Under the pieces are notes generated by a model. It was given only the letters and a program-made list of their open reading frames with translations. It was not told the DNA's origin and did not search any database. The position numbers and the translations under genes are program-made. A stretch of 20,429 bases of DNA from a virus: positions 1-20,429 of IMG/VR virus record IMGVR_UViG_3300028925_005092. One strand, 5' to 3'. Shown here in pieces: positions 1 through 14,221 of the stretch. Position 1 is the stretch's first letter. Each line of letters starts with the position of its first letter.

Positions 1-1
1 T

Positions 2-427
2 GAAGGAATGGTTGATAAATATATTGGTGACGCCATGATGGCTATATTTAATGCTCCTATAGATCTTGATAAGCATGAAGATAAGGCTATTGAATGTGCT
101 TTAGAAATACAGAAAAACATGATTGAATTAAACCGTGAATTAGTGGAGGAAGGACTACCTAGTATAGCTATAGGTATAGGGATAAACTCAGGTGACGCTA
201 TTATAGGGAACATGGGAAGTGACCAAAGATTTGATTATACCGCTATAGGTGACGCAGTAAATACTGCTGCTAGATTAGAAAGTTCTACTAAAGAGGTGGG
301 GGAAGATTTAATTATAGGTCAAAACACTAAACAAAAGTCTAAATTTGAGTTAAAATTATTGAAACCTATAAAAGTTAAAGGTAAAGCGAAAGCGTTAGAA
401 ATATATACTGTACATACGGAGGTATAA
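2..427 (+). CDS. Class III adenylate/guanylate cyclase, C-terminal part (5' truncated by window)
   Basis: This is the C-terminal half of a class III nucleotidyl cyclase catalytic domain, which makes a 3',5'-cyclic nucleotide from an NTP. The frame is open to the left edge, so the true start and the first metal-binding Asp lie outside. Numbering from the ATG at base 8, the motif DKYIGDAMMAIF holds the purine-selecting Lys4 and the second metal Asp8. The motif YTAIGDAVNTAARLE holds the partner Asp82 and the transition-state residues Asn85 and Arg89. A Lys/Asp pair is the adenine-specifying combination in this family, so cAMP is the expected product. The C-terminus has the usual closing pattern of these domains (PIKVKGKAKALEIYTV), so the 3' end is complete. 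The stop overlaps the next ATG by one base, coupling it to the holin. Its presence beside phage lysis genes is unusual. The domain call is firm; the activity is inferred. Confidence 0.9.
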   Translation, partial: EGMVDKYIGDAMMAIFNAPIDLDKHEDKAIECALEIQKNMIELNRELVEEGLPSIAIGIGINSGDAIIGNMGSDQRFDYTAIGDAVNTAARLESSTKEVGEDLIIGQNTKQKSKFELKLLKPIKVKGKAKALEIYTVHTEV

Positions 428-900
428 TGAAATTTAATCTAATCAAAAATATAGTTGGTGCCGTAGCCCCAACACTTGGTACTGCTCTTGGTGGTCCAAT
501 GGGAGGCATGGCTACTAAAATGATTGCTGATGTATTAGGTGTACCTAATAACTCTAAGTCAATAGAAAAAGGTTTATCAGAAGCTACCCCCGAACAAATG
601 CTAGAACTTAAAAAGTCTGAACAAGCTTTTGAGATACAAATGAAAGAGCTTGAAGTAGACGTGTTCGCTATGGAAACAGCTGATATCCAGGATGCTAGAG
701 GTAAGTTTAGTAAAGACTGGACAGCTAGAATAATGGGTATAGTAATCGTAGGTGGCTTTATGGGGTACATATTTTTAGTAACTCTACAACCGCCAGAACA
801 AAACTCAGAAGCTCTTATTAACTTAGTACTTGGTTACCTCGGTGGGTTGGCTAGTGCGGTTATATCTTTTTATTTCGGAGCCTCACACAAACAGGATTAA
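427..900 (+). CDS. Putative holin, GTA-type 3TM family
   Basis: A 157-residue probable holin, which would form inner-membrane lesions that release the endolysin encoded just downstream. It has a Gly-rich hydrophobic N-terminus (residues 5-38), a charged central stretch with TADIQDARGKFSKDWTAR (about 84-101), and two clear hydrophobic segments at about 102-120 and 129-151, the second ending ISFYFGASHKQD. This order matches the family known as holin of 3TMs for gene-transfer release, found in alphaproteobacterial gene transfer agents and many marine phages. The start is supported by GGAGG at 418-422, four bases upstream, and by the TAATG overlap with the cyclase stop. The adjacent lysozyme supports a lysis role. 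The assignment rests on pattern and context rather than on catalytic residues. Confidence 0.75.
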   Translation: MKFNLIKNIVGAVAPTLGTALGGPMGGMATKMIADVLGVPNNSKSIEKGLSEATPEQMLELKKSEQAFEIQMKELEVDVFAMETADIQDARGKFSKDWTARIMGIVIVGGFMGYIFLVTLQPPEQNSEALINLVLGYLGGLASAVISFYFGASHKQD

Positions 901-902
901 CT

Positions 903-1346
903 ATGAATATTTCACAAGAAGGGTTAGGATTAATTAAAAAATTTGAAGGGTGCGAATACAACGCATACAAATGTGCTGCTGGGGTATTGACTATAGGCTA
1001 TGGTCATACTGCTGGTGTTAAAGAAGGAGACTTAGTAACTCAACAAGAAGCAGATAAAATACTAGAAGAAGACATGAAAGAGTATGAAGGGTATATCAAC
1101 GATTATGTGACTGTTGACCTTGATCAGAATCAATTTGATTCTTTAGTAAGTTGGGTCTTCAATCTTGGACCAGCTAATCTAAGAGCATCTACTATGCTTA
1201 AAGTACTGAACAACAAAGAATATGAGGAAGTCCCAAATCAAATGAAACGTTGGAATAAAGCAGCAGGAAAAGTTTTAGAAGGTCTGATTAGACGTAGAGA
1301 AGCAGAATCTTTATTGTTCCAAGATAAAGAATGGCACGAGGTGTAA
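903..1346 (+). CDS. Endolysin, T4/lambdoid-type lysozyme (GH24 muramidase)
   Basis: A 147-residue glycoside hydrolase family 24 lysozyme that would cleave the MurNAc-GlcNAc bonds of peptidoglycan at the end of infection. The catalytic signature is complete: Glu15 in KKFEG, Cys24 eight residues later where many relatives have Asp, and Thr30 five residues further in LTIGYGHT. That E-8-C-5-T spacing is the canonical triad spacing. The later motifs QFDSLVSWVFNLG (about 77-89) and GLIRRREAESLLF (about 127-139) are also typical. Length is normal for the family. The N-terminus is not hydrophobic, so there is no signal-anchor-release segment; the enzyme probably stays cytoplasmic until the upstream holin triggers. 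AGGA at 893-896 lies six bases before the ATG. Confidence 0.93.
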   Translation: MNISQEGLGLIKKFEGCEYNAYKCAAGVLTIGYGHTAGVKEGDLVTQQEADKILEEDMKEYEGYINDYVTVDLDQNQFDSLVSWVFNLGPANLRASTMLKVLNNKEYEEVPNQMKRWNKAAGKVLEGLIRRREAESLLFQDKEWHEV

Positions 1347-1347
1347 T

Positions 1348-3213
1348 ATGCCGTTAAGTAAGTTTGTATTTAAACCAGGAATTATGCGAGAAGGTACTGC
1401 CTACGATAATGAAGGTGGGTGGTTTGATTCAAATTTAGTTAGGTTTAATGCCGGTAGACCAGAGAAGATAGGCGGATGGCAAAAAGATTCTATCAATACT
1501 TTTTTAGGTACTTGTCGTGCGTTACACTCTTGGGTTTCTTTAGACGGAAGTAAGTTCTTAGGACTAGGAACTCATTTAAAATACTATATATTAGAAGGAG
1601 ATACTTTTAACGATGTTACCCCAATTAGAGCCACCACAACTAATGGTATTGTTTTTTCTGCTACTAATGGCAGCAGTACTATAACCGCAACTGATAGTGC
1701 TCATGGAGCAGTATCGGGTGATTTTGTAACTATATCTGGTTCTGCTAGTTTAGGTGGTCTTGTTACTGCTGCGGTATTGAATCAAGAATATCAAATACTT
1801 TCTGTACCTACTACTAGTACTTTTACCTTTACTGCTAAAGATACTAGCGGTAACACAATAACAGCTAACTCAAGCGATAGCGGTAACGGGGGAAGCGGTG
1901 TAGACGGTGCGTTCCAGATAAACATAGGTTTAGACGTGTATGTTCAATCAACGGGTTTTGGTTCTGGACAATATAACACAGGTACATGGGGTTCAGTTAC
2001 TGCTCTATCTAAAACTAACCAGTTACGTAATTGGTCTCACGACCATTTTGGGGAAGACTTGATAATAGCTGTGCGTAACGGTGAGCTTTTTTATTGGGAT
2101 AAAACTGACGGGGTACAAACCAGAGCCGTAGCTTTAACAGGTATAAGCGGAGCTAGTTTTGTTCCTACTATTTGTTTAGGGGTTACTGTCTCGGAAACTG
2201 ATAGGCACGTTATAGTTTTAGGGGCTGACCCTATAGTCGGGGATGCTAGAACTGGGGTTCTTGACCCTATGTTAGTATCTTTTAGTGACCAAGAAAACCC
2301 GTTACAATTTGAGCCACTTGACACTAATACTGCTGGAGATTTAAGATTATCGGAAGGTAGTTTAATAGTAGGCTCAGTAAAAGCTAGACAAGAAACTTTG
2401 ATATGGACAGACACAGCTTTATATAGTATGGCTTTTATTGGACCACCGTTTACTTTTGGTCTTAATCTAATAAACAATAATACAGGTCTTATATCACCTA
2501 ACGGGGCTATTACGTCACCTAACGGTGTTTACTGGATGGGTTACGATAACTTTTACGTGTATAACGGTAGCGTTCAAAAAGTACCTTGTAGCGTACTTAG
2601 TTATGTTTTTGATGATCTTAACAGCGGTCAAGTATACAAAATAAATGCATTTACTAATAATGCCCATGATGAAATAGGTTGGTTTTATCCTTCTGCTAAT
2701 TCAACTGAAGTGGACAGATATGTTGTGTATGATTATAACGATAACGTTTGGAGTTACGGTGAGTTAAGTAGAACCGCTTGGTTAGATGAAGGCACAGTAG
2801 ACTACCCTAGAGCCGTAAGTGAGAACTATCTATATGAACATGAGTTTGGTTTTAACGATGATGGTAACCCTATGACTAATGTATTTATAGAAAGTAGTGA
2901 TTTTGATATAGGTGATGGTGAACAGTATGCATTCTTTAGTAAAATTATACCAGATATCAAATTCTTAAATAATAGCGGTGGCGGTAAAGTTAATTTAGTT
3001 TTAAAAACTAGGGACTTCCCTGGGGATACGCTTACTACTAATAGCACTAACGCTATAGCTAGTACAACTCAACAAGCACACATAAGAGGTAGAGCACGAC
3101 AAGCTGTGATACGTTTAGAGTCAGATGATACAAATACAAATTCAAGTAATGATGATACTGGTTGGAGATTGGGTGCTACTAGGTTAGATATAAAAGGTGA
3201 CGGTAGAAGATGA
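1348..3213 (+). CDS. P22 gp10-like packaged-DNA stabilisation/head-tail protein
   Basis: A 621-residue virion protein. The N-terminus (KPGIMREGTAYDNEGGWFDS, then VRFNAGRPEKIGGWQK, residues 9-46) is typical of a family common in marine podoviruses. The body contains repeated short beta-rich blocks such as ETLIWTDTALYSM, NGVYWMGYDNFYVYNG and DRYVVYDYNDNVWSYGEL, resembling the beta-propeller-like P22 tail accessory factor gp10, which plugs the portal and retains packaged DNA. Residues about 95-186 look like an inserted Ser/Thr/Gly-rich beta domain, ending in a SGNGGSG linker. GAGG at 1338-1341 precedes the start by six bases. The stop overlaps the next ATG by four bases (ATGA). The gp10 relation is inferred from pattern; a structure prediction would test it. 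A generic tail tube or hub protein is the alternative. Confidence 0.6.
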   Translation: MPLSKFVFKPGIMREGTAYDNEGGWFDSNLVRFNAGRPEKIGGWQKDSINTFLGTCRALHSWVSLDGSKFLGLGTHLKYYILEGDTFNDVTPIRATTTNGIVFSATNGSSTITATDSAHGAVSGDFVTISGSASLGGLVTAAVLNQEYQILSVPTTSTFTFTAKDTSGNTITANSSDSGNGGSGVDGAFQINIGLDVYVQSTGFGSGQYNTGTWGSVTALSKTNQLRNWSHDHFGEDLIIAVRNGELFYWDKTDGVQTRAVALTGISGASFVPTICLGVTVSETDRHVIVLGADPIVGDARTGVLDPMLVSFSDQENPLQFEPLDTNTAGDLRLSEGSLIVGSVKARQETLIWTDTALYSMAFIGPPFTFGLNLINNNTGLISPNGAITSPNGVYWMGYDNFYVYNGSVQKVPCSVLSYVFDDLNSGQVYKINAFTNNAHDEIGWFYPSANSTEVDRYVVYDYNDNVWSYGELSRTAWLDEGTVDYPRAVSENYLYEHEFGFNDDGNPMTNVFIESSDFDIGDGEQYAFFSKIIPDIKFLNNSGGGKVNLVLKTRDFPGDTLTTNSTNAIASTTQQAHIRGRARQAVIRLESDDTNTNSSNDDTGWRLGATRLDIKGDGRR

Positions 3214-3581
3214 GTAGGCTCTTAGCTACTAGACTACCCCAGTCTATGGAGGAGTCAGTAAAATCTGAAACTTACAATAGATTAATCAGGGTTTTAGAGC
3301 TCAACTTAGGTACGTTTGACCCTGATAACACAAGACAGATTAATCAAGTAGAAAGAGATACTCTTAGGTTTAATATTGGTAGTGTTATTTGGAACACTAC
3401 TATTGGTGTATTACAGGTTTGGACTGGTCACTACTGGTTAGACATTGGTGAACGGTTAATTGACCTTGGTTACGAGGCTACAGCCAGTTTAGGTAGTGTA
3501 ACGGTTACTACTAATGGTGACGTTTCTATAAACATAGGAAGTAATAATTCTGGTTATGGTGTAGAAGCCTACTATACATAG
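3210..3581 (+). CDS. Small conserved phage virion-associated protein, unknown function
   Basis: A 123-residue protein I cannot name. The N-terminal half is charged and probably helical (SMEESVKSETYNRLIRVLELNLG). It is followed by a beta-rich middle, FNIGSVIWNTTIGVLQVWTG (about 51-70), then HYWLDIGERL. This pattern of a fixed label being put on a sample-like string (NTTxGVLQVWTGxYWxDI) also occurs in collar and fibre-associated phage proteins. The C-terminus is Gly/Ser/Asn-rich. It starts inside the stop of the gp10-like gene (ATGA overlap), so it is translationally coupled to it and is probably a tail or head-tail component. There is no signal peptide or membrane segment. Confidence 0.65.
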   Translation: MSRLLATRLPQSMEESVKSETYNRLIRVLELNLGTFDPDNTRQINQVERDTLRFNIGSVIWNTTIGVLQVWTGHYWLDIGERLIDLGYEATASLGSVTVTTNGDVSINIGSNNSGYGVEAYYT

Positions 3582-3627
3582 TAGAAAGTTGTATATATAA
3601 TAAATAGATGTTCAATAAGTAGATAAT
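3582..3627 (+). promoter_or_regulatory. 46-bp gap with TATAAT box; possible internal late promoter
   Basis: This is the only sizeable gap inside the virion block, where all other genes abut or overlap. It contains TATAAT at 3596-3601 within an AT run. No convincing -35 box lies 16-18 bases upstream, and no clear Shine-Dalgarno sequence precedes the ATG at 3628. It may be an internal promoter for the ejection-protein genes, or only an AT-rich spacer. Confidence 0.25.
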
Positions 3628-5055
3628 ATGGGCGGTTTAAAAAGTGTAGCTAAAAGTCTTAAGAGGTTCGTAAAGAAGAACACAAAAGAGATCGCAACTA
3701 TTGCAGGCTTATTTATTCCTGGAGTCGGTCCAGTTTTAGGTGCAAGTATAGGTAGAGGTATAGGTGGACTAGCTGAAGGTGAAGACCTCGGTGAAGCAGC
3801 AATGGCTGGTGCACAAATATATGCTGCTGGTAGTATGATGAAAGGTGCTGGTTTTGGCTTTGACGGTACAGCATCAGGTACAGCAAAATTTTATAATTCC
3901 GCAAATGCTGGGGTTAGTGGTACTGGTATAACTGGATTTTTTGAAGGCGTAGGTGCTAATACAGCTGCAGCTCTAGGTGCAAATGTTCCTGGTGCTGGTG
4001 GTGTTGCAGGTGCTCCGGGAACTTTAGCCACTATAGGTGAAGGTTATGAAGGGCTGAATATTTTACAAAAAGCAGGAGCTGGGCTTATAGGAGCTAGTGG
4101 AGTTAGTAGTCTTACTGGTGGTTTTGGTGATGATGAAGCAGCGGCAATGCCCGGACCAATAGATCAAAGTGGGTATCTTACTCGAGGTTTAACCCCTGCT
4201 CAATTAAGTGACGTTTACGGTACTAAAGGTTCAGGTACGGGGATAACCGGTAGTATGCCTAGTTTAGAACAATCTTATGACTATGACCCTGTCAATTCTA
4301 GTATAGCGGAACTATTAAAACAACAAGATGAATACGAATTAGAGTTCCCTGAGTTCGCTAGAGTAGGTATGAATAGGGGTGGAGCTTTAGGCATGTCACC
4401 TGCTATACAAATGGGTACAGATATACAACAACTACAACCTATTATGAATGATATGTCACAACCACCACCGGTGCAAATGCTTAAACCATTTCCTTCACTT
4501 AGTCAACCATTTCAACAAAGGAGAGGGGCACAAGGAGACGTTATGAGTGCATTAAGACCCGTAGGTGATTTTATAAAAGATAGATTAAATACCGATGAGG
4601 TTGATTCTACTCTACAGGAGTTTGCTCAAACTATTGAAAGTAAGTTCCCAGATAATAACGGTGGAGGCATGCAAGGTGGTTTTCAAAACATGTACGGTGG
4701 TCCAGGGCAAAGTAACGGGATAGGTCAGTTAAAACAAATAAGCACCACAGATCAAGGAATGGATAGAAACAATTTCAATATTCAATCCAACGATGTAGCA
4801 AGATTAGCTGACGGTGGTCAAATGCCAACACAAGATTTAGATTTAAGAGAACATGGCGGGGACATTGATGACCCAGAAGGTTCGGGGGATGAAGATACTG
4901 TACCAGCATTACTTGCTGACGGTGAATTCGTTATGACAAAACAAGCAGTAGCCGGTATAGGCGATGGCGACCATGATAAAGGCATAGCTCAATTGTATGC
5001 AATGATGGGAATGAATGAAAACAAAGCTCAAACAATGGGCATAGGCAGGGCATAA
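3628..5055 (+). CDS. Gly-rich virion/ejection-type protein with C-terminal DGEFVMT motif
   Basis: A 475-residue protein of unrecognised precise function. It begins with a strongly basic stretch (residues 5-20), then a Gly-rich hydrophobic segment (about 21-47, IATIAGLFIPGVGPVLGASI) and a long Gly/Ala-rich low-complexity region to about 150. The middle is Pro/Gln-rich. The C-terminal module (about 423-475) has VPALLADGEFVMTKQAVAG, a motif frequent near the ends of large structural proteins of marine phages. The hydrophobic Gly-rich N-terminus would suit a protein that is ejected and crosses the host envelope, which is inference. It is the first of five consecutive large genes, and its stop overlaps the next ATG (TAATG). 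Confidence 0.6.
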   Translation: MGGLKSVAKSLKRFVKKNTKEIATIAGLFIPGVGPVLGASIGRGIGGLAEGEDLGEAAMAGAQIYAAGSMMKGAGFGFDGTASGTAKFYNSANAGVSGTGITGFFEGVGANTAAALGANVPGAGGVAGAPGTLATIGEGYEGLNILQKAGAGLIGASGVSSLTGGFGDDEAAAMPGPIDQSGYLTRGLTPAQLSDVYGTKGSGTGITGSMPSLEQSYDYDPVNSSIAELLKQQDEYELEFPEFARVGMNRGGALGMSPAIQMGTDIQQLQPIMNDMSQPPPVQMLKPFPSLSQPFQQRRGAQGDVMSALRPVGDFIKDRLNTDEVDSTLQEFAQTIESKFPDNNGGGMQGGFQNMYGGPGQSNGIGQLKQISTTDQGMDRNNFNIQSNDVARLADGGQMPTQDLDLREHGGDIDDPEGSGDEDTVPALLADGEFVMTKQAVAGIGDGDHDKGIAQLYAMMGMNENKAQTMGIGRA

Positions 5056-6734
5056 TGGCAGAACAAACAACAGGACGTACCGAGCAATTACCAGCACAGT
5101 ATTATAGAGATTTTATGGCGGGTGTTCCAGGAGCGAACGTCCCTGGCATAATGCCTTTATTGAATCAAGACTTAGTCAATAAGATTCAAGGTTTAGGCGT
5201 AGAAGGGGCAACTCCTTATTCTTACCAAGGTCAAAGGATAGCAGACTTTACCCCAGCTGAACAACAAGCTATGCAACTAGCGGGTGAAAACGTAGGTTCT
5301 TATCAACCGTATTTTGACCAAGGTAGCCAAATGGCTCAACAAGGTTACGGTGACGCTAGAAGTAGTGCTCAAGAAGGTATGGACTTTATGCGTCAAGGTG
5401 CTCAACAGGGTGCTGCGGGTATAAATGAAGCTCAAGGTTTATTAAGACAAGTTCCAGGTATAGCACAAGACGCAACGTTTGAAGGTTTAGGCGGTGTACG
5501 TGCTGGTCAGCAGACATTAGGTCAAGCTGGTAACATGATCGGTAACGCTGGTATAGATTTAAGCGGGGCTATGAACCAAGTATCTGGTTCAAGACCGGAC
5601 TTAGGTCAAGCACGTAATTTATTAGGTAGTCAGGCAAACGTCGGTCAAGCACAGAACGCTATCAGTGGAGCTTTAGGTAATATAGGAGCTAGTGCTCAAA
5701 CTGGGGCAGGTTCAACTCAAGGTTTTGACCCTAGAGGTATCTCTAGTTTTTCTAACCCGTATGAAGATCAAGTAGTAAGTAGAGCTTTACAAGATTTAGA
5801 AGATCAAGGTGCTAAAGCAGACGTCGCAGGTAGAGCTCAAGCTATAGGCTCTGGTGCTTTTGGCGGTAGTAGAGCCAGATTAGGTGCTCAAGAAAGAGAA
5901 GAATCATTAAGAGAAGCTCAATTAAAAACTGCTGCGGGTTTACGTAGTCAAGGTTATGAGTCTTCAGCTGGTAGAGCACAACAAGCATTTGAATCACAAC
6001 AAAACAGACAAGCACAACAAGCAGGTTTACTAGGTAACTTAGCAGGGCAACAAGCAGGTATCGGTAGTCAAATGGGTCAATTAGGTTTGAACCAAAATGC
6101 TCAAAACTTACAGGCAGGGCAATCTCTAGGTCAATTAGGTTTAGGCGAAGGTGCACAAGGCATTCAACGTGGTCAAGCTATGGGTACTTTAGGACTAGGT
6201 CAACAAGGTGCACAGCTTAATCAAGCTAATGCTATGGCTAACTTAGGAAGTGGTCAAGCGGGTATGGGTGCACAAATAGCGGGTATGGGACAAAACCTAG
6301 CAGGTACTATGGGTACTGCAGCTGGAGGACTAGGTAGTTTAGGAACAGGACTAAGTAACGTATTAGGCGGTACTGGTCAGAACTTAGCACAAAGCGGGTT
6401 ACAAGCTGGTCAGTTTGGTTCTAACGTCGGTGGTCAAATGGCTGGATTAGGTCAAGGTTTATCAGCTTTACGTCAAGGAGACGTAAATAATATGATGGGC
6501 GTAGGCGGAATGCAACGTGGTCAGAATCAAGCAGGACTAGACTTAGCGTACCAAAACTTTGTTGGTCAGTATAACTTACCAGGACAAATAATTAGTCAAG
6601 CAGCAGGAACTGCAGCAGGACTAGCCCCTACTTTAGGAGGTACTACTCTAGCTTCAGGTTCTAGTAGCGGTGGTAGTAATAGTGTAATGCAAGGTTTAGG
6701 AACTGCAGTAGCAGCATACGGAGCACTTAAATAA
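5055..6734 (+). CDS. Gln/Gly-rich internal virion or ejection protein with 18-residue repeats
   Basis: A 559-residue protein with an order common in marine podovirus internal proteins. The N-terminus is LPAQYYRDFMAGVPG, followed by an Ala/Gln/Gly-rich region. A conserved core at about 230-320 has SNPYEDQVVSRALQDLEDQG, then GSGAFGGSRARLGAQEREE and a coiled-coil-like stretch. A repeat tract follows. From about residue 341 there are at least four in-register 18-residue repeats (341-358, 359-376, 377-394, 395-412), beginning GQLGL, GQLGL, GTLGL and ANLGS. Eighteen residues is five alpha-helical turns, so the repeat could form a long helix with a fixed face. The exact role is unknown; a DNA-ejection conduit component is the likeliest reading. 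It is coupled to both neighbours by TAATG overlaps. Confidence 0.6.
   Translation: MAEQTTGRTEQLPAQYYRDFMAGVPGANVPGIMPLLNQDLVNKIQGLGVEGATPYSYQGQRIADFTPAEQQAMQLAGENVGSYQPYFDQGSQMAQQGYGDARSSAQEGMDFMRQGAQQGAAGINEAQGLLRQVPGIAQDATFEGLGGVRAGQQTLGQAGNMIGNAGIDLSGAMNQVSGSRPDLGQARNLLGSQANVGQAQNAISGALGNIGASAQTGAGSTQGFDPRGISSFSNPYEDQVVSRALQDLEDQGAKADVAGRAQAIGSGAFGGSRARLGAQEREESLREAQLKTAAGLRSQGYESSAGRAQQAFESQQNRQAQQAGLLGNLAGQQAGIGSQMGQLGLNQNAQNLQAGQSLGQLGLGEGAQGIQRGQAMGTLGLGQQGAQLNQANAMANLGSGQAGMGAQIAGMGQNLAGTMGTAAGGLGSLGTGLSNVLGGTGQNLAQSGLQAGQFGSNVGGQMAGLGQGLSALRQGDVNNMMGVGGMQRGQNQAGLDLAYQNFVGQYNLPGQIISQAAGTAAGLAPTLGGTTLASGSSSGGSNSVMQGLGTAVAAYGALK
6075..6290 (+). repeat. Four 54-bp (18-codon) in-frame repeats
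   Basis: Units start at 6075, 6129, 6183 and 6237 and are in register with the reading frame. Encoded units begin GQLGLNQNAQ, GQLGLGEGAQ, GTLGLGQQGA and ANLGSGQAGM; the first three share a Gln-rich middle and a hydrophobic last residue. A weaker upstream unit may occupy 6021-6074. The protein-level repeat is clearer than the DNA-level repeat, so the duplication is old or selected at the protein level. Confidence 0.7.
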
Positions 6735-9247
6735 TGGCTAGTAATTATTTAAGTCAGTTTGTTGATAGATATTCAGGGATGGAAGGTTACGGTATGGAAC
6801 CTACTGATATTGACCCAGTTTTAATGCAGGATAGTTTTCAACGTAGTCAAATAGAAAACTCCGCTAGGGAAATGCTTAGCCGTGGAGCGACCATGGAAGA
6901 TGTTGTGCAAGCTACTGGTCTTGATAGACAAAGCGTAGAAAATATCTTCATGAAAGATTCCGTGATGGGACAACAACCAAACGTTATGCCTAACCCAATT
7001 GACCCTTCGATAACTCAAGGTATTATGAGTAACTCTTCTAACGATGAAACTACTCAGATGATAATTGACGGTATGACTAGTGGTGAAGGTGAAGGTGCTG
7101 ATATAAAAGAATTTTTAGATGTAAGTTTAGGTGTTAATAAAGGTGAAGACGAAGACTTAACCGTAGGTGAAATGCTAGAAGCAGGAAGTCTCGCTGGTAG
7201 TAAAGGTAATCAAGGTTCATTCTCTTCTTATTTAGAGAGTTCTAGTATGTTAGAAGATATGACTGACCCAGAAAAAATGGAAGTTTATAAAAGAGCAGCA
7301 GCAAACATGGTCGGAGAACTAGATTACGAAAGTTTAATAGAACAACCCGACAAGGTGATGCCGTATCTAGCAGCAGGGCTTTCCCTTATTAACTCTGGAG
7401 AAAGAGGTGAGGACTGGGGTGCAGCTCTAGGTAAAGCATTTATATCTGGTAAAATGTCCAGTAAAAAAGAAGAGTCACGGTACAAAAAATCTAAAGCCAC
7501 TTTAGATATGCAGAGACAAGGAAATATTAATAGCCTAGTAACTAATATGGCTCTTACTGATGTTAAAGATAGAATGGCTATGAATACAGCTATCAGAAAA
7601 CAAGCGTACACAGATGAATCTACTATAAAAATGTATGATATAGCTGGTAGTAACGGCTTTGCTGATAAACAGACTAGACCTTTAACTGATACCCAGTATA
7701 AAGCAATTATTAAAACATTCCCGAACAGTGTAAGACCAACAGAAAAACAAGATTTAAAACCTTATACTGTTAATGCTGACTCAGGTAGCACAATGAATGT
7801 GTTCATGGACCAAGATCAATTAGCTTTTTATCAAAGTAACCCTAAGTATGCGGGGCAAATACGTGCTGGGCATGACAAACGTACAAACATGCAACTATAC
7901 TCAATAGATGAAGGTAACGATTCTAAAATAGAGAAGTGGTTAACTACGGATGAGTTTGATAACTTACCAGAAGGTCATATAGGTACTATATTACCTACTA
8001 GCGGTGTACCAACTTATGTGTTAAATAAACTTACAAATGCAACTGATTTTGTAAGTCCTATGGAGTTAGCACGTAACGGAGCTAAATACGAAAAAATCAG
8101 TAGCTTTAGCGGTAGTGTGACTAACACTGATGGTTCAGTTATTGAATTCGGTAACAGCCCTAACGGTAGTAAAGCTATAGAAAGACAAGGTATAAAACAG
8201 TTTGATAAAGTTAGAAATAAAATAAAAGGTATAGACAGAGCAATTGACAATTATTTTGTTTCAGCTGATAACTTAGACGGTGTTATTAATGATTACGTAA
8301 GTAGATTCCCAGACCAAGCAGATTTAGCATTTGATAACCTAGCGGGTAGAGCAACGGAATTAGCTGATAAGTTTGTTATTTCTGTTAAAGGTTTTGGTTC
8401 TCTGTTTCAAGCAGCACCCGATCAAGGAGGAAGCTCTTTTTATCAAGGTGATAATAAAGTAAGTTATGATAAATACAAAATTGATCTTATAACTTCTAAA
8501 GAATTTGAAACGTTTAGAAATAGCCCTATCGCTGGATTTTTAGAAGCTAACGGTGTGACAGGAGCTAGAAAAGACGCTGCATTATTTGATTTAGCTATGT
8601 TAGGTGCGGGTGCTTATTCAACTGAAAAAGGTTTAGACCTTAGAGCTATATCGGATTTTGAAACTAAACAATTTATGAGAATTCAAGGTGCTAACGCAAC
8701 TACTTTAAAACAATTCCAAGCTATTACTAATGACTTTAGAGGTAACTTAATTAATAGGAATATCCTAGAACTGGATAGAAGCACAGAAGATATTGATTTA
8801 ATGGATATAAAAAAAGCTGACAATACATTAGACATAGAGAAAGTACAAGCTCTAAAAGACACAAGAGATAAGTACATGAAAAAATTACTCGATCGTAAAG
8901 AAAAATTAAGTACTTCCATAAGTGACCCTAAACTACCAGGCGCAATAACCTTTGTCGCTGACGATAGTATAGACCCTGGAAATGAACAAGTTAAAAACTT
9001 GAATATTAATATATCTCCTGATTCTCAATTTGCCCTAAAATACGGTATAACCACACCTTTTACTACAGACACTAAAACTGAAATTGAAGGTACTTTCCGT
9101 GATATGGTTAATAAATACTCGAGTTTTGCTAATAATCTGGAAAAACAAGACGCTTACTTTACACAACTAGAAACAAATTTAACCGCTCAAGAGTTGATTA
9201 TATTCAAAGCACATTTACAACAAGCTAAAAAACTAGGACTGCAGTAA
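6734..9247 (+). CDS. Large alpha-helical virion protein, function unknown
   Basis: An 837-residue protein without a family I can name. It is soluble in character, acidic at the N-terminus and predicted helical over long stretches, with no membrane segment apparent. Residues about 42-72 (MLSRGATMEDVVQATGLDRQ and following) have the spacing of a small helix-turn-helix, though this may be chance helical packing. A beta-like patch at about 345-395 (MNVFMDQDQLAFYQSNP and after) resembles a short structural repeat motif. The C-terminal 100 residues are rich in Lys, Thr and Asn. Size and position between two ejection-type proteins suggest an internal core or ejection protein comparable in role, not sequence, to T7 gp15/gp16 or P22 gp16/gp20. 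It is coupled at both ends by TAATG overlaps. No peptidoglycan hydrolase signature is seen. Confidence 0.6.
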   Translation: MASNYLSQFVDRYSGMEGYGMEPTDIDPVLMQDSFQRSQIENSAREMLSRGATMEDVVQATGLDRQSVENIFMKDSVMGQQPNVMPNPIDPSITQGIMSNSSNDETTQMIIDGMTSGEGEGADIKEFLDVSLGVNKGEDEDLTVGEMLEAGSLAGSKGNQGSFSSYLESSSMLEDMTDPEKMEVYKRAAANMVGELDYESLIEQPDKVMPYLAAGLSLINSGERGEDWGAALGKAFISGKMSSKKEESRYKKSKATLDMQRQGNINSLVTNMALTDVKDRMAMNTAIRKQAYTDESTIKMYDIAGSNGFADKQTRPLTDTQYKAIIKTFPNSVRPTEKQDLKPYTVNADSGSTMNVFMDQDQLAFYQSNPKYAGQIRAGHDKRTNMQLYSIDEGNDSKIEKWLTTDEFDNLPEGHIGTILPTSGVPTYVLNKLTNATDFVSPMELARNGAKYEKISSFSGSVTNTDGSVIEFGNSPNGSKAIERQGIKQFDKVRNKIKGIDRAIDNYFVSADNLDGVINDYVSRFPDQADLAFDNLAGRATELADKFVISVKGFGSLFQAAPDQGGSSFYQGDNKVSYDKYKIDLITSKEFETFRNSPIAGFLEANGVTGARKDAALFDLAMLGAGAYSTEKGLDLRAISDFETKQFMRIQGANATTLKQFQAITNDFRGNLINRNILELDRSTEDIDLMDIKKADNTLDIEKVQALKDTRDKYMKKLLDRKEKLSTSISDPKLPGAITFVADDSIDPGNEQVKNLNINISPDSQFALKYGITTPFTTDTKTEIEGTFRDMVNKYSSFANNLEKQDAYFTQLETNLTAQELIIFKAHLQQAKKLGLQ

Positions 9248-11433
9248 TGGCACAAAACGATATAATAGATATTGATGAACTTATAGATGCTAATATTGAT
9301 TTAAGTCAACCTATACCGCCCATGGCTCAACAACCTGACCCAATGACTATAAAACCTGGAGTTTACGGTGAAGAAACTCCTGGACAGTTTGTACCTAGTG
9401 ATTTTAAAAATTATTTAGTAGACAAATTAAACATTAGCCCTAATATTATTGATAAAGTATTGGGGCAACCTTACGGGTTTAGAGACCGCTTTATAAATTT
9501 AAACCCTAAAGACGCTATAAGAGATTTATTTAGAGGCACACTTCCTGGTGACCAACCGTTAAAAGAAGGTCAGCAACCTTTCGGTTTAAATATGGATGAA
9601 CTATTTAACCCTACTGACCCCGCAACTAAAAGAGCGGAAGCTGCAGGAATAAACCCAAAAGAGGGTGCATCGTTTCAAGTACAAAAAGACGCCAGTTACT
9701 TACCCGCCGATAATTACGAGAGAGGAATAAAAGTTCTATTAAAAGAAGCTTACCCTAACGTACCTTTAGATGCTTTAGAATTAGCTACTGAACCACGTAC
9801 AGGTAGAGTAGTTTATAAGGATCCTGAATCAGGGGAAAAACAATTTGTACAACCTCCTGGTGTGGATTGGGCAGATGTTAGTGCGGTGATGGAACCTGTG
9901 ATGCTTGAGATAGCTGGTGGCGTCGCTGGTTTTGTAGCTGGTAATACAGCAGGTAGAGTTCAAGGTGGTTTAACGGGGGGTACAGCTGGTTTAGTTACAA
10001 CAGCACAATTAACCGATAGTGAATTTTTCCAAGGTGTTGGTGCTGCTACGGGGACGGTGCTTGGTGCTTTAAACCCTACTAGACCCGTAACGTTTACCCT
10101 AGCAGGTGAAGCTTTAAGTCACTACCTTTGGAGGTCAAGTAATTTAAGAGGTATGAAAGACCGTGGTATCTTAGATGAAACATACACACCTGATAAAATA
10201 GCACAAGTAGCCATGAAAGATGCTGGATTAGTTACTGCTTTTAGTGCTGGTGGCGGTGCTGCTTTCAATATGTTCGCTAGATTTTTGGGTCGTAACCCAG
10301 CTAGTGTTTTAGGTATAGATAGAGACAGTTTTATAAAAGCTTATGATGAAGTAGAAGGTATAAAAACTGGTGGTAGTAAAGCTGAACAAGAAGCGGTTGA
10401 AGATTTAACAACTCCTCAAGTTTTAGGTTTTTCTGAAGACGCAACTCCTATACGTAGACAGGCAATGCAAAAAGAGGTTGATGAGTCAGTTTCAACTAGG
10501 GCTGAAGTTGAACAAAGGATGATAGACCAACAAACTGGTTTTGACCTAGGGTATGAAAAAATATTTGACGAAGTAGGTATTGACCCTAATATTTTGATTG
10601 TGCCTGATGTCACTAAAATTAAACAAACGTTCGGTAGAGATATTGGCGGGTATTTTGACCCTGAAGACGTAAGTACTAAAGCTGGTAAAGGCGTAAACCC
10701 AACTGATAGAAAAGCCATGGCTAATAAAATAACCGAGCTTACTAGAGGAGCTGACCCCGAAGGCGTATTTGATGTCGTATGGAGAGAAGGTAAACTAACC
10801 AATACTCAAACGTTTTTAGATATGATGCCTAGTAGTAAGGTGAATGATTTTAAAACTTTAATTTATAGGGATTTTATCGATTCTACTAAAGCGGTGGACG
10901 GTAACTTTAATCCTAATGCTATACAAGTTTACTTGAATAAACATACAGACGGTCTTAAAGCCGTGTATGGGGAAGAGTTCGTTAATGGTTTAAGGAGCTA
11001 CAATAAACTTATTAAAGATATAAACATCATAGCTGGTAAAGAAGGCTTACCAGAAAACCAAGTGATTGAATTAGCTAATAGTTTAGCTAGAGCTTATTTA
11101 GGTATCTTTACTAGACCAGGAAGGGTGATTACTGCGGGTACTAAACTTACTTCCAAAAGCAGAAAAGCAACTTTTGAAAATATGATTCTTAACCCAGAAA
11201 TTTTATACAATAGAATCATGAGAGAAAAACTTTTAAGTGATCCTAAGTTTTACGATACAGCTAGGGCTATAGCTAGAGCTTACGATAAAAGTGGAGGTAC
11301 AGATCCAGAACAACCGCTCACTAATTTCCCTGTACAATCAAGAGTTATAGAAGAGTTAGACATAGAAGGGTTAGAAATGAACATGGGCGGTAACCCCTTA
11401 ATAGAATTACAATACGGTTACGGAGATAACTAA
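9247..11433 (+). CDS. Large virion protein with Gly-rich hydrophobic hairpin, probable ejection protein
   Basis: A 728-residue protein of unknown family. The first 210 residues are polar and Pro-containing. Residues about 218-282 form a Gly/Ala-rich hydrophobic region (MLEIAGGVAGFVAGNTAG, GGLTGGTAGLVTTAQ, VGAATGTVLGALNP), of the kind seen in proteins that insert into membranes after ejection. A second short hydrophobic patch follows near 326-345. The remainder is charged and helical, ending with a run of acidic residues and Gly (GLEMNMGGNPLIELQYGYGDN). I see no catalytic motif. Location in the late block and the hydrophobic hairpin favour an ejection or tail-channel role, which is inference. 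It is coupled by TAATG overlaps at both ends. Confidence 0.6.
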   Translation: MAQNDIIDIDELIDANIDLSQPIPPMAQQPDPMTIKPGVYGEETPGQFVPSDFKNYLVDKLNISPNIIDKVLGQPYGFRDRFINLNPKDAIRDLFRGTLPGDQPLKEGQQPFGLNMDELFNPTDPATKRAEAAGINPKEGASFQVQKDASYLPADNYERGIKVLLKEAYPNVPLDALELATEPRTGRVVYKDPESGEKQFVQPPGVDWADVSAVMEPVMLEIAGGVAGFVAGNTAGRVQGGLTGGTAGLVTTAQLTDSEFFQGVGAATGTVLGALNPTRPVTFTLAGEALSHYLWRSSNLRGMKDRGILDETYTPDKIAQVAMKDAGLVTAFSAGGGAAFNMFARFLGRNPASVLGIDRDSFIKAYDEVEGIKTGGSKAEQEAVEDLTTPQVLGFSEDATPIRRQAMQKEVDESVSTRAEVEQRMIDQQTGFDLGYEKIFDEVGIDPNILIVPDVTKIKQTFGRDIGGYFDPEDVSTKAGKGVNPTDRKAMANKITELTRGADPEGVFDVVWREGKLTNTQTFLDMMPSSKVNDFKTLIYRDFIDSTKAVDGNFNPNAIQVYLNKHTDGLKAVYGEEFVNGLRSYNKLIKDINIIAGKEGLPENQVIELANSLARAYLGIFTRPGRVITAGTKLTSKSRKATFENMILNPEILYNRIMREKLLSDPKFYDTARAIARAYDKSGGTDPEQPLTNFPVQSRVIEELDIEGLEMNMGGNPLIELQYGYGDN

Positions 11434-12779
11434 TGAGTATACTTAGTAAAATTAGAGAAGCGAAAAGACAACAAGTAAAGGCAGAAGAACGTATACCACC
11501 TGATCAAATGCCTATACGTTTACCACCGCCACCAAGAAAAGGACCTCCTCCTGGGGGCATAAGTATCGGTACTAAAATGGACCCCGATTTAATTATGCGT
11601 GATCAAACGAGTGGTCTTGGTGGGTATTTAAACCCTCAACAGTTAAGAGATTTCACTAATGCTCCTAAACCTGATAATAGTGCTGGTCAACAGAACATGG
11701 CAGATTTATTAAGACAGCAACAAACCTTCGGTAGTTTTTTAGCACCCCCTCCATCAGAAGATGACGGTGGTGGTGATGACGGTGGTGGTGATGACGGTGG
11801 TGGTGGTGGAGGTGATGACGGTGGCGGTGGTGGCGGTGGCGGTGGCGGTGGTGGCGGTGGTAGACCTCCAGGTAGACCTCCAGGTGACGGTGGTAGACCT
11901 CCTTTTGATGATATTGGTTTTCCTCCAATAGATTTTCCTCCAATAGATTTTCCACCACCTATAGTGCCAGGATTTCCGCCAGGTGGTAATCCAGGGGCAG
12001 GAATCCCAGGTTCAGGTATACCACCAATAGATTTTGAGCCAGGTTTAATTCCTCCAGGGTTTACTCTCCCACCACTTCCGCCAGGGTTTACTCCTCCAGG
12101 GTTCAGTGAGCCAGGAATAGGCGGATTACCGCCAGTTGATCCAGGTATGACACCTATGGTAATTGTTTATGGTCCAGACGGCACGCCATATTCTAGTCCA
12201 GCAGCAGCAATAGAAGCAGGAGTTATGGATTATTCTATGACGCCACCAGGTTCTTCATCCGTAGCCGGTTCACAATTTCCTCCTATGATGCCACCAGGAG
12301 ATGGGGGACAATTTCCTCCTATGATGCCACCTGTAGCCCCGCCAATGGATATAGCTCCACCTATGCCACCAATGGCACCTCCGATGGATAGACCAATTCA
12401 AAGACCAATGCCTGAACCGCCAATGGGTATAGCACCGCCACCTATGGATATAGCACGATTACCCACAAAAGGAAGACCAGATGGGTTTATGCCAGAACCG
12501 CCACGAGAAAGACCTAAACCTATGGAAATTACTCCTCCGGGAATCGGTGGTTTAGATTATGACGCTCTTACTAAACAGCTACAAAAACAGATGGAGATGC
12601 CTAAAGGTGTTGATGAAGATATAGTGATGCGAGACTTAATGAAAAATATGGTACCTACTGAAACGGGAACTAACGCTGGGGCTATATCATCTTTACCTGG
12701 AATGAATTTACCTGTACCTAGAAGGGCAACAGGTATGGAAACTTTAGTATCACCTAGAATGATGAGAAGAGAACGTTAA
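11433..12779 (+). CDS. Pro/Gly-rich low-complexity structural protein, last gene of the virion block
   Basis: A 448-residue protein of strikingly low complexity. A basic, Pro-rich N-terminus is followed by a Gly/Asp tract (about residues 110-143), then RPPGRPPGDGGRPP, duplicated PPIDF units, and a long Pro/Met-rich region (PPMMPP, PPMDIAPP, PPMGIAPPP) to about residue 375. The C-terminus (from about 376) is more ordinary and basic, with EDIVMRDLMKN and PRMMRRER. MRD also occurs near residue 52, so the two ends may share a short motif. No enzymatic motif is present. It may be a flexible linker or extended surface or tail protein. Its stop lies inside the 3' end of the opposing helicase gene. 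The frame is uninterrupted and the start overlaps the upstream stop, so it is a real gene. Confidence 0.6.
   Translation: MSILSKIREAKRQQVKAEERIPPDQMPIRLPPPPRKGPPPGGISIGTKMDPDLIMRDQTSGLGGYLNPQQLRDFTNAPKPDNSAGQQNMADLLRQQQTFGSFLAPPPSEDDGGGDDGGGDDGGGGGGDDGGGGGGGGGGGGGGRPPGRPPGDGGRPPFDDIGFPPIDFPPIDFPPPIVPGFPPGGNPGAGIPGSGIPPIDFEPGLIPPGFTLPPLPPGFTPPGFSEPGIGGLPPVDPGMTPMVIVYGPDGTPYSSPAAAIEAGVMDYSMTPPGSSSVAGSQFPPMMPPGDGGQFPPMMPPVAPPMDIAPPMPPMAPPMDRPIQRPMPEPPMGIAPPPMDIARLPTKGRPDGFMPEPPRERPKPMEITPPGIGGLDYDALTKQLQKQMEMPKGVDEDIVMRDLMKNMVPTETGTNAGAISSLPGMNLPVPRRATGMETLVSPRMMRRER
11760..11861 (+). repeat. GGT/GAC tandem repeat tract encoding Gly/Asp
   Basis: About 100 bases of GGT, GGC and GAT-GAC codons. 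The left part has three near-identical 15-base units (GATGACGGTGGTGGT) starting at 11760, 11775 and 11790; the right part is a nearly pure GGY run. Purine/pyrimidine composition differs sharply from the AT-rich surroundings. Such a tract is prone to slippage and is likely length-variable between relatives. Confidence 0.85.
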
Positions 12780-14221
12780 GTTAGCCAGTCTTTAAGGGTT
12801 TCTTCACCTAGTATTGTACTGGCTATAGATTGCTTTTTACGTAACGCTTTTACTATCTTTTCATCGACTGTTTTTTCACAGACGATATCAATATAGGTTA
12901 CTTTATTCATTTGACCTATACGGTGTGCACGGTCTTCTGATTGTAAACGTTTTTCAAGGTCGTAATTATTACTGTAATAGATAACTGTGCTGGCAGCAGT
13001 CAGAGTAATTCCGTAACCGCCTGTCTGGGTATTACCTACAAAAAATCTCATAGGGCTATCGGGGTCTTGGAATAAATTAATTACTTCTTCTCTACGTTCT
13101 TGAGGTACGTCACCGAAATAAGTTCCTACTGATTCTTCACCGTACATTTCTGTTAGTAACTTTTCTATTCTTTTTATGTCGTGGCGGTAGTTAGCCCAGA
13201 TAATTATCTTACCGTCTGTTTCCTCTAAAATAGAGGACAATTCAGAGACTCTATTATTAGTAAACTCGGTAATACTACCGTCATCCGTTCCTATGAATCC
13301 ACATGAAATTTGATGTAAACGTATGATCTGAGTCATGACATGATTTATAGTAACAAGCTTATTATTTTTCAATTGAGTGGCTGCAAAGTTTTGTAATTCT
13401 TTATACGCTTTGGTTTGCTCAGCTGTCATTTGTATTTCACGACGTATGTAAACTTTCTCTGGTAAATCTAAACAGTCTTTCTTTAATATTCTGTGGCTAA
13501 ACTTACCGAGTGCTTCATTTAACTCTTCTAAGTTTTTATAACCAGTCACCATTTTAAAAGTTCTACCTTGGCCAGTCATTTCTTTTAGGTCTGCATATCT
13601 AGCTCTGAATGCAAAGTAACTACTAAACCCTAGTAAAGCTGGATCTAGAAACATACACTGGCTATATAAATCTAATGGACTCTTAGTAATAGGTGAGCCT
13701 GTTAGTATCCTTCTGTAGTGGGCATACTTACCTAGCCTTACACAATTTACTGTACGCTTAGCGGAAGGGTTTTTTATAGTAGTACTTTCATCTATTATAA
13801 ACATAGTCTTATTAGACTGAATAAACTTATTGGCATACTGACAACCTTTCTTAGTACTAAAGGCTTCAATATTCATAACTAATATTTTTAGGTTATCGTC
13901 GTAAACAAATAACTTTTCTAAGTCTTTTAAAAACTTTTGAGTATGGCTACTAGTCCACTTAACAACGTCCCTCTCTACATGGTCAGGTATATGGGCGTCT
14001 AGTTCTTTATTGACCCACGTACTGTACACACCTTTAGGGGCTACTATTAATATATTATTAACTTTACCTTGACCGTACAGGTGAACGAAGTTGTCTATAG
14101 TAACTTTTGATTTACCACAGCCCATCTCCATAAATAGAGCGTACTCTTTTTTGTCGCATGATTCTACTAAAGCCTCCAACTGATGGTCGTAAGGTTTAGT
14201 CTTAAAAATAAAATTATCCAT
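12776..14221 (-). CDS. SNF2-family (SF2) DNA helicase/translocase
   Basis: A 481-residue ATPase with the full SF2/SNF2 motif series and the usual short phage length. It has a Q-motif-like YDHQLEAL (11-18), Walker A MGCGKSK (33-39), Ia LIVAPKGVYSTW (58-69), motif II DEST (144-147, a variant of DEAH common in phage SNF2 proteins), motif III LTGSPI (173-178), and C-terminal motifs V/VI GGYGITLTAAS and RLQSEDRAHRIGQ with the arginine fingers. Expected to translocate on or remodel dsDNA during replication or recombination; the exact job is not deducible. It is the only minus-strand gene here. It reads out of the 14.2-14.56 kb control region, with AGAGACGAG just before its ATG, and its 3' end overlaps the virion block by four bases. 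Confidence 0.92.
   Translation of the reverse strand: MDNFIFKTKPYDHQLEALVESCDKKEYALFMEMGCGKSKVTIDNFVHLYGQGKVNNILIVAPKGVYSTWVNKELDAHIPDHVERDVVKWTSSHTQKFLKDLEKLFVYDDNLKILVMNIEAFSTKKGCQYANKFIQSNKTMFIIDESTTIKNPSAKRTVNCVRLGKYAHYRRILTGSPITKSPLDLYSQCMFLDPALLGFSSYFAFRARYADLKEMTGQGRTFKMVTGYKNLEELNEALGKFSHRILKKDCLDLPEKVYIRREIQMTAEQTKAYKELQNFAATQLKNNKLVTINHVMTQIIRLHQISCGFIGTDDGSITEFTNNRVSELSSILEETDGKIIIWANYRHDIKRIEKLLTEMYGEESVGTYFGDVPQERREEVINLFQDPDSPMRFFVGNTQTGGYGITLTAASTVIYYSNNYDLEKRLQSEDRAHRIGQMNKVTYIDIVCEKTVDEKIVKALRKKQSIASTILGEETLKDWLT

Follow-up and report, generated by a model that had tools for sequence, protein, structure and literature searches.

A predicted CHASE2 receptor adenylate cyclase that most likely closes a curli-FecR gene module in phages

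Why would a phage carry an adenylate cyclase gene directly in front of its lysis genes? The question is raised by a marine viral record of 20,429 bases (the window, meaning the whole stretch of DNA analyzed), which begins on the plus strand with an open frame without a 5' end at 2-427; the gene starts upstream and is cut by the 5' end of the contig, leaving 141 codons from the 3' end of a CHASE2-class III adenylate cyclase gene. This frame matched the Pfam family Guanylate_cyc (PF00211, E 3e-14) at profile positions 55-182 of 183, with 53.3 bits against a curated cut-off of 21.9. Its stop codon TAA (425-427) overlaps the ATG (427-429) of the following gene as TAATG (425-429, plus strand), and that gene (427-900, plus strand) encodes a holin-like membrane protein of 157 aa in PHROG 1544 (function unknown), in which no Pfam match to a holin domain was found; the holin label rests on PHROG 1544 and on the position beside the lysozyme. 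The phage lysozyme (endolysin) follows at 903-1346 (plus strand, PF00959 E 7e-49, PHROG 7), and a virion structural/stabilisation protein, which served as lineage marker, at 1348-3213 (plus strand, PHROG 3287 E 8e-67; identity to isolates 38.7% for DSL-LC04, the best, 32% for HTVC027P, and 29% for HTVC023P). The coordinates, neighbours, and TAATG overlap had been given correctly in the first-pass annotation, which took the locus for an active cyclase making cAMP late in infection and offered three meanings: retuning of host catabolite control, timing of lysis, or flooding of the receptors of cyclic-nucleotide defence.

The part of the gene that lies upstream of the window was obtained from relatives. 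The contig L002 (5,009 bases), which comes from another metagenome, aligns with window 1-3761 at 98.0% identity (over 3,767 b) and carries an additional 1,231 bases upstream. It contains a continuous frame of 551 residues, missing about the first 40 residues of the cyclase, in which CHASE2 (E 7e-22) was found along with transmembrane helices and a complete cyclase domain (E 6e-21; 75 bits against PF00211). The first metal Asp, which the window fragment by itself does not have, being cut, is intact in L002 within FTDVRGFT; a sensor or membrane domain and this residue were the two upstream elements that the first-pass annotation had proposed to look for, and both are present. Full-length viral relatives have about 585-595 residues, and the CHASE2 profile PF05226 also matched L005 and L006 (E 1e-23 to 1e-25), both of which have the cyclase domain as well. 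In an AlphaFold model of a relative (pLDDT 87.5), N-terminal helices are followed by CHASE2, further long helices, and then the cyclase, so CHASE2 sits between N-terminal and further transmembrane helices. The modelled catalytic domain resembles CyaC (1wc1) and P. aeruginosa CyaB (3r5g), class IIIb-type enzymes with the same catalytic fold and about 30-36% identity, whose sensor domains differ from the CHASE2 of the phage enzyme. A chimera of host and phage DNA was ruled out, as L002 spans the same genes and junctions at 98% in another metagenome.

We then compared the catalytic residues. The purine-contacting Lys (17-19) and the second metal Asp (29-31) lie in KYIGD (17-31, plus strand) and are invariant in 93/93 viral and 78/78 cellular sequences, and alignment places a Thr (239-241) at the selecting-Asp site and the transition-state Asn (260-262) and Arg (272-274) after it (239-274, plus strand). 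Among the 93 full-length viral relatives the selecting site is Thr in 73, Ser in 19, and Asp in 1; both metal Asp, Lys, and Arg are kept in all 93, and Asn in 92/93, being lost in Melnitz. L002 holds the full set of two metal Asp, purine Lys, and transition-state Asn and Arg. The active site described at first reading therefore stands for the second metal Asp, the Lys, and the Asn/Arg pair, but not for the Asp of a Lys/Asp pair, which is a Thr. Such a Lys/Thr pair points to ATP as the substrate and is of the class IIIb type, in which Thr or Ser replaces the selecting Asp; in sAC-like enzymes, a Thr at this site has been taken as a predictor of stimulation by bicarbonate (PMC3383692). A decayed gene was ruled out by the open frame, the retained catalytic residues, and a dN/dS of about 0.1 for the window part against L007 (34 synonymous and 18 non-synonymous changes), values which show purifying selection on the cyclase gene. 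Of the earlier phrase "active rather than decayed", the second half is thus confirmed, whereas activity is a prediction from conserved residues: the locus encodes a phage-borne, conserved, and probably active adenylate cyclase beside lysis genes. In the Melnitz cyclase (L083 6917-8968) the selecting residue is Asp, and a Ser has replaced the transition-state Asn, so that its activity may differ.

The lysis genes were considered as the first candidate partners. Of the 90 loci with enough downstream sequence, 80 have a gene of the holin or spanin type on the same strand no more than 3 kb downstream, and 72 have a lysozyme there. These frequencies, the TAATG overlap in the window, and a published proposal that the phage CsgGF pore regulates lysis (PMC9004378) would suit a cyclase that times lysis, with cAMP or the accompanying curli pore taking part in a late switch together with holin, lysozyme, and spanins. 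However, lysis genes of this kind are missing from the 3 kb downstream in 10/90 loci, among them the myophages HTVC008M and Melnitz, where the module adjoins tail and baseplate genes. L166 is 99.85% identical to the window over 902-7593 (6.7 kb), that is, from the lysozyme start, but its positions 1-1490 are wholly different from window 1-902, with spanin-like genes where the window has the holin-like gene, and a cyclase whose protein sequence is only 60% identical; L007 likewise has spanin-like genes in place of the holin-like gene. In L175 and L218, curli and FecR genes without a cyclase precede the same holin and lysozyme, and adjoining late genes may merely share a transcript. We consider it quite unlikely that the cyclase times lysis. 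The order cyclase-holin-lysozyme, which the first-pass annotation had suggested to seek in related phages, is common (80/90) but not fixed (L166, HTVC008M, Melnitz), and its ideas of late cAMP coupled to the holin and of lysis timing found no support: the lysis neighbour is exchangeable, the holin is not the conserved partner, and the constant partners are the curli and FecR genes upstream. As a separate observation, the break between L166 and the window at the lysozyme start has the form of a sharp module exchange.

What, then, stands upstream of the cyclase? A scan of viral contigs gave at least 594 confirmed stretches related to it; the frames of 80 loci were clustered, followed by profile searches over 159 viral loci. 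The gene order in the viral relatives is csgF, csgG, curlin, FecR, (curlin), cyclase. In loci long enough, FecR was found upstream of the cyclase in 79/79, curlin in 58/58, CsgG in 56/56, and CsgF in 47/47, counts which cover related sequences and hence are not independent events. Conversely, the cyclase is present in 82/86 FecR loci with enough downstream sequence and absent in 4/86 (L175, L180, L218, L227). All four belong to the same lineage and are natural cyclase-minus phages for comparison, and three of them, L175, L180, and L218, have the whole csgF-csgG-curlin-FecR set; in L175 a short gap after FecR is followed by the holin-like gene. In the lineage of the window, the cyclase is present in 20 of the 26 loci that have 4.5 kb upstream of the structural gene. 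Since FecR occurs without the cyclase in 4/86 and the cyclase always occurs with FecR, the cyclase depends on the curli-FecR module and not vice versa. The sequences of the window and of L002 break off within the cyclase gene, before FecR, so it is through its relatives that a FecR and curli set is strongly indicated for the window's phage. Judged from this gene content, the window ORF most likely ends a phage module made up of curli (T8SS), FecR, and CHASE2 cyclase genes.

A previous study described pelagiphage curli clusters with FecR and adenylate cyclase and suggested a regulatory role (PMC9599517), and adenylate cyclases are annotated within the phage curli clusters of HTVC008M and Melnitz. 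The relatives of the window have this gene set in identical order, and the full-length L005 cyclase shares 33-34% identity with those of HTVC008M and Melnitz across 96% of its length. The lineage of the window is separate (structural protein 29-39% identical to isolates), and its module lies before lysis genes and not beside tail genes. We found no published pelagiphage T8SS podovirus genomes in a tblastn search of the phage collection with CsgG or FecR, and the integrase PF00589, a temperate marker, was absent from 18 records. In front of csgF stands a small gene (cluster c5, e.g. L051 2098-2388 and L069 1103-1450) with a hydrophobic stretch and a probable coiled coil. A histidine kinase has been reported at this place in phage T8SS clusters (PMC9599517), whereas no kinase domain was matched in the two c5 members scanned; the c5 gene may be what was reported as the kinase. 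The cyclase frame of L069 (4502-6248) is in two pieces, owing to a frameshift, an error, or decay.

The phage FecR was characterized as the constant neighbour of the cyclase. The FecR domain PF04773 is present in 40/40 viral partners (best E 2e-13). A model (pLDDT 71) begins with a signal helix, continues with the FecR beta domain and a linker, disordered at about 216-295, and ends in stacked short strands at the C-terminus. Structural comparison matched the beta domain to the cell-surface signalling domain of PupR (Z 15.4), and its first part to the cell-surface anchoring domain 5ix9 (Z 7.3, in the range of common arrangements). Phage FecR thus shares the signalling domain of FecR/PupR systems and differs from them by the disordered linker and a curlin-like tail; no sigma factor partner of the FecR/PupR type was seen for it. 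The tail resembles one curlin repeat, e.g. SYTVILIQDGVSNTVKINGGSSTTITIKQ. A profile of 73 FecR tails matched the phage curlin profile with E 5e-4 (probability 32%); for ten further families from these loci, used as controls, E was no better than 0.15. The Pfam curlin repeat PF07012 had no match in the tail. Because the tail had been noticed by eye ahead of the test, its curlin-like nature is suggestive.

Putting the enzyme and the module together, we think it fairly probable that the ORF encodes the C-terminus of a membrane CHASE2 receptor cyclase which closes a csgF-csgG-curlin-FecR-(curlin) module, with FecR relaying the state of the fibre. During infection, phage CsgG/CsgF would form a pore in the outer membrane of the host, curlin fibres would be exported, and FecR, with its signal peptide and curlin-like tail, would be exported and stay in the periplasm or at the pore. 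There it may sense that a fibre is being exported, anchored, or touched, and pass this state to the periplasmic CHASE2, whereupon the activity of the cytoplasmic cyclase would change; the contact between FecR and CHASE2 is our proposal. The resulting cAMP would act on a host receptor, probably of the CRP family. Profiles of the cNMP-binding domain PF00027 found no match in 26 phage records, several of which are fragments, while the controls matched, so the cAMP target is presumably a host protein; no literature report of a cAMP receptor in Pelagibacter was found. Because the cyclase gene closes the curli block, the cyclase probably reports on the cell surface, not on lysis timing. More specifically, and more tentatively, the phage may run an outside-in line in which a curli-tied FecR switches the CHASE2 cyclase, so that cAMP follows fibre export or contact with a cell or surface. 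Against the module reading speaks that Melnitz caused no host clumping in culture (PMC9004378).

The other two meanings given at first reading bear on the same evidence. The cyclase might only lift host cAMP and retune metabolism via CRP, FecR and curli being separate passengers, as a class III cyclase with all catalytic residues in phages without a cAMP receptor of their own, whose target must then be in the host, would allow. But a large periplasmic CHASE2 is kept in the full-length viral copies and the linkage to FecR is without exception, and since an unregulated enzyme needs neither, we regard plain metabolic retuning as unlikely. The remaining idea is a cyclase that floods or blocks the receptors of cyclic-nucleotide defence systems. 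The signals of CBASS are cyclic oligonucleotides, and those of Pycsar are cCMP and cUMP; a class IIIb membrane receptor with a Lys/Thr pair that is tied to FecR and curli is ill-suited as a maker of soluble decoys. We found no supporting evidence for this defence function, which the first-pass annotation had raised: the enzyme is a predicted transmembrane CHASE2 receptor whose constant partners are curli and FecR. We consider counter-defence very improbable, and much less likely than metabolic retuning or lysis timing. An anti-CBASS or anti-Pycsar nuclease or sponge was also considered and rejected, as the domain content is that of a cyclase and not of a nuclease.

The favoured reading, a receptor cyclase informed by FecR, was further compared with cellular systems. 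Among cellular proteins, CHASE2 cyclases from Alphaproteobacteria and other groups come closest (27-34% identity). Such enzymes (S. meliloti CyaD1/CyaD2/CyaK; Campylobacterota, Alphaproteobacteria) share with the phage enzyme the CHASE2 and class III domains, the Lys with Thr/Ser pair, and a FecR neighbour. In a tree of 78 sequences, however, the viral cyclases form a group of their own (support 90; podovirus-type 100), apart from the cellular ones. FecR directly adjoins the CHASE2 cyclase in 22/59 cellular loci, and 7 of the 8 such FecR proteins scanned have RTX and/or cadherin-like adhesin domains; the cellular partners have 750-2,500 aa and are mostly RTX/cadherin proteins, whereas the phage FecR is small with a curlin-like tail. 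A host curli operon was rejected as the direct source, as no CsgF/CsgG was found beside the 80 nearest cellular CHASE2 cyclases. The FecR-CHASE2 cyclase pairing has likewise been reported in Campylobacterota (PMC9239204). In S. meliloti, the CHASE2 cyclases answer to a plant protein via the outer-membrane barrel NsrA (PMC13001267), and CyaD1 without CHASE2 makes cAMP constitutively (PMC5498481); the FecR gene smc02177 beside cyaD1, however, is a target of the pathway, and the assay used showed it to be dispensable for perceiving the signal (PMC5498481).

That phage curli clusters include FecR and an adenylate cyclase was already known (PMC9599517). New here are the complete domain make-up, the corrected active site, the strict dependence on the curli-FecR module in one direction only, the cyclase-less modules, the exchangeable lysis genes, the frequent location of cellular CHASE2 cyclases beside giant FecR-RTX/cadherin adhesins, and the possible curlin-like tail of FecR, for a receptor cyclase found in hundreds of marine viral contigs. 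If the proposal is true, lytic ocean phages would install a new surface fibre with a private sensor and write the result into host cAMP, a viral form of a wider principle by which CHASE2 cyclases would read the state of a FecR-bearing surface adhesin. The strict FecR pairing may offer a route to what bacterial CHASE2 domains sense, as FecR-bearing adhesins are frequent neighbours there.

In addition, the contig L086 (3-7718), which bears phage genes (exonuclease PHROG 255, PHROG 18771, PHROG 527) although its bin is a bacterial genome (Rickettsiales), stands beside the viral group in the tree. It encodes a cadherin-domain protein, a TolC-like outer-membrane protein, an ABC-transporter-like membrane protein, and a HlyD-type protein directly before a CHASE2 cyclase, and this set is possibly a phage type I secretion system, a second export of surface proteins linked to a CHASE2 cyclase. 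In the window itself no RNA features or tRNAs were found. A protein with very high Pro, Gly, and Asp content (GGGDDGGG runs) at 11433-12779 adjoins the structural genes, and an SNF2-type helicase at 12776-14221, the sole long minus-strand gene, lies between the structural and the replication genes.
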